Shown here one piece after another: positions 59,953 through 64,000 of a DNA stretch of 64,000 bases. Numbering within the stretch: position 1 is the stretch's first letter; each line of letters starts with the position of its first letter. The position numbers were made by a program, and so were the translations under genes. The notes under the pieces are model-generated. The model worked only from the letters and a program-made list of their open reading frames with translations. It ran no database searches and was not told the origin of the DNA. The stretch covers positions 1,922,001 to 1,986,000 of the forward strand of contig NZ_CP089588.1 in NCBI RefSeq assembly GCF_021249345.1, in the 5' to 3' direction. This DNA is from Halobacterium wangiae. GTDB lineage: Archaea; Halobacteriota; Halobacteria; Halobacteriales; Halobacteriaceae.

Positions 59953-60678
59953 TCAGTCCGCGCCAGCGTCCGCCTCGGGCACGTCGCGGTCGGTGAACCC
60001 GGGGAGGTGTGGGTCGCGCTCGGGGTTGCGGCCGAACGCCGGCAGGCCGCCCGCGAGCTGGTCGGTGAGGACGCGGCGGAGCCGGTTCAGACTCGTCTTG
60101 TCGAGGTCGTAGCGGTCGGCGAGACGCTGGAACGCCGGCTCCTCGGTCACGTCGTGGCGCTTGTACTGCTCGAAGAGGTCCTCGAGGCGCTCGGAGGAGA
60201 CGCTGCCCGCGTCCAGGTCGTCGAGCCCGAAGTAGCGCCGCCGGTCGACGTCCACGACGTGGCGGATGACCACGAGCGCCACCTTCTCGATGGCGCGCTG
60301 GCTCCCGAACTCCGTGAGGTCGATCTCGCCCATCACGCCGAGGGCGACGTCGCGCTGCCACGGCGTCACGTCCACCGCGTTGCACAGCGCCTGCGTCGTC
60401 CGCAGGCGGTCGAGGTAGTGCGCCCGCCGGCTGTGGCCCTCGGTAGCCGTGTGGCGCTCGTCGTGGAGGCGACGGACGCTCTCCGAGAGGTCGGCCTCTG
60501 GCGACTCGGCGCGCCCGATTACCGTCGCGCTCGGTGAGACGACGCCCCACTTCCGGACGGTCGTGTCGCGCTGTGCCTCCGTGCGGGACAGCGCGCCCGC
60601 TCCGGGCCGGTGTTCGACGCGTCGGTCGCCGTCGCTGGCCGACTCCCACCGGACTGACGTCCCGGAGCCTGCTCGCAT
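59953..60678 (-). CDS. DNA-directed RNA polymerase subunit epsilon
   Basis: A 241-residue protein of the haloarchaeal RNA polymerase epsilon family. Characteristic segments are TTVRKWGVVSPSATVIGRAE, LRTTQALCNAVDVTPWQRD, and RVLTDQLAGGLPAFGRNP near the C-terminus. The N-terminal 40 residues are variable and rich in Gly and Arg. The protein copurifies with haloarchaeal polymerase; its task is poorly known. The ATG at 60678 is fixed by a TATA-like box at 60702-60710. Three tandem 46-base repeats lie directly upstream. Confidence 0.88.
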   Translation of the reverse strand: MRAGSGTSVRWESASDGDRRVEHRPGAGALSRTEAQRDTTVRKWGVVSPSATVIGRAESPEADLSESVRRLHDERHTATEGHSRRAHYLDRLRTTQALCNAVDVTPWQRDVALGVMGEIDLTEFGSQRAIEKVALVVIRHVVDVDRRRYFGLDDLDAGSVSSERLEDLFEQYKRHDVTEEPAFQRLADRYDLDKTSLNRLRRVLTDQLAGGLPAFGRNPERDPHLPGFTDRDVPEADAGAD

Positions 60679-60701: not shown

Positions 60702-60710
60702 CTGTTAAAC
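60702..60710 (-). promoter_or_regulatory. Proximal TATA-like box of the RNA polymerase epsilon gene
   Basis: The minus-strand GTTTAACAG is centred 28 bases from the ATG at 60678, so it can give a leaderless message independently of the repeats. Confidence 0.65.
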
Positions 60711-60770: not shown

Positions 60771-60816
60771 GCAGAAGTCCTTCGTATCTACTCCTTGTCG
60801 CCAGAAGCACTTAAAG
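60771..60816 (-). repeat. 46-base repeat, copy 1 (possible tandem promoter)
   Basis: Nearest to epsilon. On the minus strand it begins CTTTAAGTGCTTCTGGCGAC and ends in GGACTTCTGC. Only two bases differ from copy 3. A predicted start site about 26 bases after the CTTTAAG box falls near 60787. CCCCG lies 6 bases upstream of the box. Confidence 0.85.
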
Positions 60817-60908
60817 GAGGGTCGGGGCGGCCGACACTCTCGGCGGGAGTGGGACGGAAAATCCTCAACGACCGGCGACAGGGCCGTCGCTGGGACGTCG
60901 AAACACCC

Positions 60909-60954
60909 CGAGAAGCTCTTCGTATCTACATCTTGTCGCCAGAAGCACTTAAAG
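60909..60954 (-). repeat. 46-base repeat, copy 2 (possible tandem promoter)
   Basis: Begins 138 bases from copy 1. The CTTTAAGTGCTTCTGGCGAC block is identical to copy 1; the far end diverges slightly (GAGCTTCTCG). CCCCG lies 7 bases upstream of the box. The predicted start is near 60925. Confidence 0.85.
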
Positions 60955-61026
60955 CGACGAGCGGGGCGTCGTCGCCACCCCCACGAGGAGTCACAGCGCA
61001 GTGGCTATCGAACGCGCGTAGCACTC

Positions 61027-61072
61027 GCAGAAGTCCTTCGTATCTACACCTTGTCGCCAGAGGCACTTAAAG
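61027..61072 (-). repeat. 46-base repeat, copy 3 (possible tandem promoter)
   Basis: 118 bases from copy 2 and 24 bases from the end of the dsbA-like gene. It has CTTTAAGTGCCTCTGGCGAC on the minus strand and the same GGACTTCTGC end as copy 1. CCCCG lies 6 bases upstream of the box. The predicted start is near 61043. Confidence 0.85.
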
Positions 61073-61095: not shown

Positions 61096-61725
61096 CTACT
61101 CCGTGCCTTCGACCAGCCGCCGGAGCTGTGCCGGCGGGACGGCGCCGCGGGCGGCGTAGCCGTCGTACGCGAACGTCGGTACGCCAGTGACGCCGGCTTC
61201 TCTCGCCTCGGCGAACTGCGCCTCAAGGCGTTCACGCCACTCCTCGTCGGCCACGACGGAACGAATCCTCTCGGGGTCGAGGCCGACGTCCTCGGCGACG
61301 TCTGCGAGCACGTCCACGTCGCCGATGTCGCGGGCGTCCTCCCAGAGCGCCTCGAGGAGCGCGACGTCGAAGTCGAGCCACTGGTCGGGGTGCTCCTGTT
61401 TCACGTAGAACGACGCCACCTGCGCGTCCAGGGAGTCGACGTCCCGCGAGAGGTCGAGGCTCATCTCGTCGGCGCCGTACTGCTCCTTCAGACGCTGGAC
61501 GTTCTGTTTCGCCTGCTCGAAGTACGCCTCGTCCTTCCCGTCGTCGGCGTCGTGGTCGATTTCGCCGTCCGGCCCGCGCTTGCCCGCGCGCAGGTCGAAG
61601 GGGCGCCAGTCGATCTCGAGGCGGTCCTCGCGGTTCTCCTGGTACTCCGCGAGGGACTGCCGCCCGAGGTAACAGAACGGGCAGACGTAGTCCGAGTAGA
61701 CGGTGATCTCGTTGGTTTCGCTCAT
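61096..61725 (-). CDS. DsbA family oxidoreductase (FrnE-like)
   Basis: A 209-residue DsbA-fold protein. The active site CPFC is in VYSDYVCPFCYLGRQSL, the helical insert lies between about residues 45-160, and the cis-proline is in AGVTGVPTFAYDG. It has no signal peptide, so it acts in the cytoplasm, like FrnE and 2-hydroxychromene-carboxylate isomerase relatives. It probably forms or reduces protein disulfides. The upstream region has a CGCTTTTCG element for the ATG at 61725. Confidence 0.88.
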   Translation of the reverse strand: MSETNEITVYSDYVCPFCYLGRQSLAEYQENREDRLEIDWRPFDLRAGKRGPDGEIDHDADDGKDEAYFEQAKQNVQRLKEQYGADEMSLDLSRDVDSLDAQVASFYVKQEHPDQWLDFDVALLEALWEDARDIGDVDVLADVAEDVGLDPERIRSVVADEEWRERLEAQFAEAREAGVTGVPTFAYDGYAARGAVPPAQLRRLVEGTE

Positions 61726-61982: not shown

Positions 61983-62747
61983 ATGCACGAACAGGACACT
62001 TTCCGGGTGAAGTCAACGGTGACGACTGTCCAGGTTATCGACGCACTGATCGTGCTCGATCGCCCCAGAGTTGCCGACATCGCGGTCCATCTCGACATCC
62101 CGAAGAGCACTGCGCACGACCACCTGAGCACGCTCATCGGCTTAGGACTCGTCGTCAAGGAGCCTGACGGGTACCGACTGGGTGCCCGCTTCCTCGAGTA
62201 CGGCGGCTACGTACGCGACCAGATGGCGGTGTACCGTGCCGCCCGTCCGGTCGTCGACCGACTCGCCGAGGACACCGGTGAACGCGCGAACCTGCTGATC
62301 GAGGAGCGGGGGCTCGGTGTCTATCTCTACGAAGCGGAGGGCAGGTATCCGATTGAGCTCGATACTCGCCCTGGGAAGCGAGTACCCCTTCAGACTACCG
62401 CGTCCGGGAAGGCTATCATCGCACACCTTCCCCGGAGCCGTACCACCGAGATAATCGACGAGCATGGCCTCCCGGAGGTTACTGGGAAGACTATCACAGA
62501 GCGGGACGAACTGTTCACAGAACTTGAACAGATCCAGGATCAGGGGTACGCCATCGACGATGGAGAGCGCGTCAAAGGGGTCCGGTGTGTCGCCGCACCG
62601 ATTCTCGACCACGACGACAAGGTCGCCGGTGCTGTCAGCGTCTCTCTACCAGAAACCAGAGCGTCCGAGCACCCCGTCGCGAACGAGATTGTGCGTCGCG
62701 TCCTCGGTGCCGCAGAAGGTATCAAGGCGACTATGGCGCGTTCGTAG
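61983..62747 (+). CDS. IclR family transcription regulator
   Basis: A 254-residue regulator. The N-terminal winged helix is VTTVQVIDALIVLDRPRVAD and IPKSTAHDHLSTLIGLGLV. The effector domain has VPLQTTASGKAIIAHLP and VKGVRCVAAPILDHDDKVAGA, typical of IclR. A TATA-like box (ACTTTTCTC, 61952-61960) lies 28 bases upstream. The effector and targets are unknown; many haloarchaeal IclR proteins act next to catabolic genes. Its G+C is lower than the genes to the left. Confidence 0.92.
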   Translation: MHEQDTFRVKSTVTTVQVIDALIVLDRPRVADIAVHLDIPKSTAHDHLSTLIGLGLVVKEPDGYRLGARFLEYGGYVRDQMAVYRAARPVVDRLAEDTGERANLLIEERGLGVYLYEAEGRYPIELDTRPGKRVPLQTTASGKAIIAHLPRSRTTEIIDEHGLPEVTGKTITERDELFTELEQIQDQGYAIDDGERVKGVRCVAAPILDHDDKVAGAVSVSLPETRASEHPVANEIVRRVLGAAEGIKATMARS

Positions 62748-63336: not shown

Positions 63337-63485
63337 TCTCGGTGGGGCCGGTATCGATTTCACCGGCTGGAATGTTCCACTAGCAGTCCGAACAGGGGGA
63401 CGGAGGCTGACCAGACATTGTTTCTCTGGTCCTGGCACGGTACTGCTGGGAGTTGGTCCTATTTGACCTTCATCCCCGAGGTGAG

Positions 63486-63501
63486 CTGTTGAATACAACA
63501 G
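63486..63501. promoter_or_regulatory. Palindrome CTGTTG-AATA-CAACAG, candidate operator
   Basis: A perfect 6-base inverted repeat with a 4-base centre, 36 bases upstream of the second IclR gene and just before its TATA-like stretch (AACTTTCAAC, 63506-63515). IclR proteins bind palindromes near their own promoter, so autoregulation is plausible. Confidence 0.5.
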
Positions 63502-63536
63502 CAACAACTTTCAACACCTTCTCCCTATGCTACGCT

Positions 63537-64000
63537 ATGCCAAACTCGGGCGAGAACAGCTCGACACGAACGGTCGATGCGGTCGGACGGACGATCGACA
63601 TATTCGAAGCCCTCCACGAACTCGAGGGAGGGACGGTGACGGAACTGGCCGACCATCTCGGCTACTCGAAAAGCTCCGTACATGCGTATCTGACCAGTCT
63701 CGAGGAGCGTGAGTTCGTCACCAAGGAGGGCTACTTCTACCGGCCGAGTTACCGGTTCATCACGATAGCCGAACGCCTCCGTCGATCGCACTACGACATC
63801 TACAGGTTCGGGCGGGAGGCGGCCAAGCGACTCGCGGAAGAGACCGGCGAGTTCGTCCAGATAATGGTCGAGGAGTACGAGATGGGCATCCACATCTTCA
63901 CGGCGTCGGGGAAGAAGGGCGTGTACGCAGACAAGTACCCGGTCGGGCGGCCATGTCCGCTTCACTGCAACGCTGCAGGGAAGGCGATCCTCGCCACCCT
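63537..64000 (+). CDS. IclR family transcription regulator, 3'-truncated by window
   Basis: The first 154 codons of a second IclR-type regulator; the frame runs off the right edge. It begins MPNSGENSSTRTVDAVGRTI. The winged helix has GGTVTELADHLGYSKSSVHAYLTSLE. The effector domain starts at about residue 85 and reaches CNAAGKAILAT, the usual ligand-site segment. It is clearly diverged from the IclR gene at 61983. ATG 63537 is in frame; the ATG at 63527 is not. Confidence 0.9.
   Translation, partial: MPNSGENSSTRTVDAVGRTIDIFEALHELEGGTVTELADHLGYSKSSVHAYLTSLEEREFVTKEGYFYRPSYRFITIAERLRRSHYDIYRFGREAAKRLAEETGEFVQIMVEEYEMGIHIFTASGKKGVYADKYPVGRPCPLHCNAAGKAILAT

Follow-up and report, generated by a model that had tools for sequence, protein, structure and literature searches.

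The window analysed here, a stretch of 64,000 nucleotides of the Halobacterium wangiae chromosome, contains the gene for the epsilon subunit of RNA polymerase (rpoeps). Ahead of this gene lie a candidate proximal promoter, three near-identical repeats that all read toward rpoeps, and a gene for a thioredoxin-fold protein:

59953..60678, minus strand: epsilon gene (rpoeps), 241 aa, ATG at 60678; homologues are annotated as epsilon; putative autoregulator and specificity factor
60704..60709, minus strand: TATA box (TTTAAC) of the predicted proximal promoter, 31 bases before the epsilon ATG
60771..60816, minus strand: proximal copy of the element, found in the sequence and by genome pattern search and profile; TATA CTTTAAG at 60810-60816, box CTTCTGGCGACAAG at 60794-60807, initiator GATACGAAG at 60780-60788
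60909..60954, minus strand: middle copy of the element; TATA at 60948-60954, box at 60932-60945, initiator at 60918-60926
61027..61072, minus strand: distal copy of the element; TATA at 61066-61072, box (CCTCTGGCGACAAG) at 61050-61063, initiator at 61036-61044
61096..61725, minus strand: DsbA/FrnE-like thioredoxin-fold gene, upstream of epsilon

Two IclR-like regulator genes lie near the end of the window on the plus strand, at 61983-62747 (an IclR family member by Pfam) and at 63453-64000 (similar by eye).

The epsilon subunit has posed a riddle since the 1980s, and many haloarchaea do without it. The product of the window gene matches plasmid-encoded proteins that carry the annotation epsilon, at 52-58% identity over 84-94% of the query; its family is the NCBI "DNA-directed RNA polymerase subunit epsilon", to which the epsilon of Halobacterium RNA polymerase (rpoeps, OE_1279R) also belongs. 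According to the published account, RNA polymerase with epsilon transcribes native templates efficiently whereas polymerase without it does not, and the role of the subunit is termed enigmatic; the text consulted describes no promoter element, regulon or autoregulation (PMC8305020). Searches of the window protein against Pfam and NCBIfam matched no family, Pfam revealed no recognisable DNA-binding domain, and a sequence search of solved structures gave no match. An AlphaFold model of modest confidence (mean pLDDT 65) has a helical core, and its best matches in the PDB are mostly cyclin-fold/TFIIB proteins, all at E >= 0.4 and none significant; a second model was weaker. When epsilon was aligned by hhalign with the genome's own TFBs, the E values were 0.61 and 0.09, and a reversed control did as well as the second of these; there is no sequence or profile similarity between these proteins. 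The resemblance to TFIIB suggested by the model is only a lead.

The three repeats, first recognised in the initial annotation as near-identical copies separated by unrelated spacers, are present at the coordinates listed above, as seen both in the sequence and in a genome-wide pattern search. Over 46 bases, the proximal copy matches the middle one at 40/46 positions and the distal one at 44/46 (87-96%, counted by hand), and the start-to-start distances are 138 and 118 bases. Each copy has the previously described order, toward epsilon, of CCCCG, 6-7 bases, CTTTAAG and a conserved stretch downstream, GATACGAAG, which follows at 27 bases from the first T in TTTAAG. Besides the two boxes noted at first, the invariant core takes in CTTCTGGCGACAAG between them. 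The predicted start in each element is the G of TAGATACG; with the mapped start of IR4 in halovirus HF2 as a guide, transcripts would begin at ~60788 (G), ~60926 and ~61044, no more than 1 base from the earlier predictions of 60787, 60925 and 61043. When up to 3 mismatches are allowed, a 37-base pattern matches exactly these three sites throughout the 3.11-Mb genome, and the reversed control has no match. Likewise, a profile search of the genome recovers the three window copies at E = 3e-13 to 1e-11 and no further element up to E = 10. Epsilon itself is the only detectable target of the element in Halobacterium wangiae. In several other Halobacterium species, element copies are also present ahead of the gene upstream of rpoeps, which is not so in the window.

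Between the repeats and the coding region, the TATA box at 60704-60709 is placed such that a transcript would begin at or near the ATG, which fits the leaderless proximal promoter that had been postulated. A TATA-like box is found at the corresponding place in 12/12 Halobacterium species, the related genomes of the same genus group.

The element was modelled (R1) from the sequences of 75 distinct copies, and the later collection comprises 181 distinct copies; R1 was trained on copies near epsilon, and distant versions may escape it. In the 181 copies, only the interval from about -35 to +12 relative to the predicted start is conserved, and the flanks are at background. Within this interval the conserved order is a CC near -34 (weak), a nearly invariant TTTAAGT at -27 from the predicted start, a class-specific box of 13-14 bp between the TATA and the start (TTCTSGYSAYAAG), and a GATACGA-type initiator. 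The box shows a weak dyad symmetry, TTnTSRYSAnAA, as read from the alignment. As in haloarchaeal TBP/TFB promoters, the TATA of the element lies ~26-27 bases before the predicted start and a BRE-like site is present upstream. Since conservation is limited to -35 to +12, the repeats are shaped like promoters and not like a small RNA, whose transcribed part would be conserved; the promoter-like nature first suggested for them thus appears to be correct. The same element is found upstream of epsilon in most related genomes, usually in one to three copies, and the spacing of tandem copies ranges from 84 to 224 bases (median 123), with no clear helical phase by eye. Judged from these alignments, the element very probably constitutes a dedicated haloarchaeal promoter class, distinguished by the extra box between TATA and start. 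This promoter type is previously undescribed, and a literature search for the core sequence GCGACAAG together with haloarchaea found no paper.

One close parallel is viral. The class I intergenic repeats of halovirus HF2 (~58 bp) were shown to be promoters by reporter assay and primer extension, with transcription starting at a G in the gamma motif, and they are active in Hfx. volcanii (PMC8707807). Counting from the TATA box, whose published position is -26, we place this start at the G of TTAG. Like the element, the HF2 repeats contain CTTTAAGT and a conserved initiator, TAGAGTGAGGAG, and this initiator nearly matches the diverged version of the element in genus g85. Indeed, the HF2 repeats (L274 480-536) and the g85 element (L173, L177) have in common TAAGTCATT and, nearly, TAGAGTGAGGAG, a likeness which suggests that virus and host share a promoter type. 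Unlike the element, the HF2 repeats have a different sequence between TATA and start and are two bases shorter. The HF2 promoter tolerated mutations next to the TATA (in the part of the beta region that lies outside the box) with no negative effect, but the initiator region was essential (PMC8707807). A search of viral contigs with the core pattern of the element gave one match, which lies inside a phage-structural-like ORF and gets no score from the position matrix; it was taken as a chance match. For mapped 5' ends within the genus, a dRNA-seq dataset exists for H. salinarum NRC-1 (PMC6523106).

What the initial annotation missed is that in relatives the element defines a regulon, and that its occurrence goes with that of the epsilon gene. 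A first sample contained the element in 69/146 genomes of the order, with up to 10 copies each, and 40 regions around element copies were fetched for a survey of targets; gene calls around distal copies, made with a simple composition-based script, are approximate. In family f17 the element stands 98-131 bases before the start codon of a UbiA-family prenyltransferase gene, taken as menA, which heads what looks like a menaquinone operon. Family f8 has the element ahead of a GNAT acetyltransferase gene followed by thiE, and also at an RlaP-type nucleotidyltransferase gene adjoining epsilon. Further targets are genes for a PRPP synthetase and for a CspA-like protein, and the DsbA neighbourhood is a recurrent target in Halobacterium. 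Because many copies in relatives lie ahead of menA, DsbA-like, GNAT-thiE and other genes, the element marks a regulon and does not belong to epsilon alone. At several copies away from the epsilon locus, no obvious gene or ORF follows.

Some of these copies are arranged in distinctive ways. Genome G149 has three tandem copies (L085 881, 1071, 1220) ahead of a CspA-like cold-shock gene, an array like that of the window. In two f6 genomes (L104 4095-, L110 4128-), ~370 bases after the element are 87% identical, with small gaps, and this stretch has no convincing open frame, as if the element drove a non-coding RNA. In ~11 genomes of family f17, 1-3 copies lie past the 3' end of epsilon, at a distance of ~100 bases, and are directed back into the gene, as in L094 (2241, 2380 +), L097 (3033, 3164 +) and L106 (1724 -); transcripts from these convergent copies could be antisense to epsilon and might restrain its autoactivation.

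Among 392 genomes of the order, the element is present in 173 and epsilon in 180: both occur in 172, neither in 211, the element only in 1, and epsilon only in 8 (Fisher test 2e-100, a value inflated by shared ancestry). The one genome with the element only is a draft of 87% completeness, split into 210 contigs. The eight with epsilon only consist of five of genus g49 (f4), one of g63 and two of g85 (f8). No element is visible in g49 (five species) or g63 (one species); in the two g85 genomes, which were scored as element-less, a diverged element is visible at the usual place. The co-occurrence also holds within families f1, f4, f6 and f14, each of which mixes carriers and non-carriers, and the element is missing from genomes in which epsilon is represented by distant paralogues only. 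Nearly all carriers examined have at least one copy just ahead of epsilon, and elements adjoining epsilon could be inherited with it by linkage. However, 90 of the best 150 copies are not just upstream of epsilon; since many copies lie far from epsilon and none is present in epsilon-less genomes except for one draft, the co-occurrence is no trivial linkage effect. The element thus tracks the presence of epsilon, which makes epsilon itself the likely factor, although co-occurrence as such does not separate epsilon from another gene of equal distribution.

The sequence of the element also changes in parallel with the clades of epsilon. In a maximum-likelihood tree built from 57 epsilon proteins there is a supported clade (100/96) that spans families f4, f7, f8 and f9, and the elements scored in this clade have a TAGTG or TAGTA initiator (AAGTA in one). 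Members of f8 whose epsilon falls elsewhere in the tree have a TACG initiator, and the f4 genus g40 has GATATAG. Because the initiator version differs within f8 and f4 along the epsilon tree, it follows epsilon and not the family. The rRNA promoters that are readable in f7 and f9 genomes of the clade keep an ATGCG initiator. Most copies in the TAGTG/TAGTA clade adjoin epsilon and could be co-inherited with it; one unlinked copy in a TAGTG-version genome has the same initiator version (n=1; two genomes, >1.7 Mb searched). This unlinked copy (L262 8074 +, G096) points at the 3' end of an apparent Orc1/Cdc6 gene.

We propose that the three repeats are three complete tandem promoters of the dedicated class, each with a TATA, a TTCTSGYSAYAAG box and a fixed initiator, and that transcripts would start within them. 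Epsilon would join the polymerase, contact and read the box inside the initiation complex, and work like a specificity factor, driving transcription of rpoeps and, in most relatives, of a few other genes. A basal level of epsilon would come from the leaderless promoter near the ATG and would be amplified by the tandem array, so that the effect would be activation and not repression, that is, positive autoregulation. Co-occurrence, gene position, matched divergence and the published biochemistry all point to epsilon as the factor, and this suggests that epsilon helps to choose its own set of genes. That epsilon recognises the class, with positive autoregulation through the array in addition to the basal leaderless promoter, has in our estimation about an even chance of being right. 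The broader reading, in which epsilon is a specificity factor that travels with the polymerase, sets up a separate promoter class alongside the TBP/TFB code and autoregulates via tandem copies, has slightly less than an even chance. TFB reads the BRE upstream of the TATA; in contrast, the box of the element lies downstream of it. Bacterial sigma factors provide an analogy only, with no homology claimed: they too are polymerase-associated factors, can serve a small promoter class and can be autoregulated, and a sigma-like recognition by epsilon is a proposal. If epsilon reads the box, archaea would have a polymerase-bound specificity factor besides TBP and TFB, and a promoter class that occurs almost only where epsilon exists offers a directly testable answer to the epsilon riddle, together with a list of target genes. 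Should epsilon not read the box, the analysis would still have defined a promoter element between TATA and start that is both new and widely conserved.

The most serious competing explanation, which we consider unlikely, retains the promoter class but assigns the box to an ordinary DNA-binding transcription factor that shares the distribution of epsilon, with epsilon as its most constant target. Such a regulator would account for a box with weak dyad symmetry, as dimeric regulators like, and for a subunit with no detectable DNA-binding domain, and linked genes are inseparable by distribution. Yet no other gene is seen constantly beside epsilon at the locus, and the version of the initiator tracks the epsilon tree across families.

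The box could instead be an operator, at which epsilon or another factor represses transcription (negative autoregulation), a reading that we regard as rather improbable. Repressors of archaea often occupy the stretch between TATA and start, and the convergent f17 copies aimed at the 3' end of epsilon would fit a brake, but every copy keeps a full TATA and initiator and not the box alone, and the copies have multiplied as whole promoters, which is needless for a repressor. Furthermore, epsilon stimulates transcription in the published assays (PMC8305020).

The initial annotation had also suggested that epsilon might be tuned to growth rate in the manner of rRNA. Like the element, haloarchaeal rRNA arrays (H. 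cutirubrum, Hfx. volcanii) consist of complete tandem promoters ~100-150 bases apart, and several active starts ahead of 16S rRNA have been reported (PMC4983044). The rRNA leader of Halobacterium wangiae contains three promoters, two as CTTAAGTAATAACGGTGCTTTCGGGATAATGCGAACG and one with a TTTTACG box; its array and that of the element both have copies ~120-140 bases apart. In addition, rRNA promoters share with the element a TTAAG-type TATA and, at the same distance, an ATGCGAA initiator (ATRCGAA-type in this genome). The anticipated likeness to the rRNA leader therefore extends to the TATA-to-initiator spacing and the initiator, but not to the middle box: CTTCTGGCGACAAG is absent from the rRNA promoters of this genome and of the other haloarchaeal leaders examined, and, counted from the TATA, the rRNA ATGCGAAC occupies the place of the element's ATACGAAG. 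The rRNA promoters occur whatever the element version of the genome, and their initiator evolves separately, keeping ATGCG where the element has turned to TAGTGA. Moreover, epsilon-less genomes are without the element although all genomes need rRNA promoters. Growth-rate tuning of epsilon by the general machinery, through rRNA-type tandem promoters, is thus very improbable.

A repeated small RNA or a mobile repeat with no promoter role, both of which had been raised at the outset, is barely credible: several copies in relatives do lack a downstream ORF, but conservation ends at ~+12, an Rfam search of the repeat region matched no family, the leader RNA of the proximal transcript is no more stable than shuffled sequences, and the copies keep a fixed orientation toward conserved, recurrent targets while their flanks share nothing.

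A distant epsilon-like family (L035, L033), encoded on plasmids and in genomes, is 29-42% identical to epsilon over part of its length, and some of these proteins come without the element. Epsilon paralogues are found in genus g12, where there are 2-4 per genome (G081, G095, G109, G119), and several of them have element copies directly upstream or downstream.
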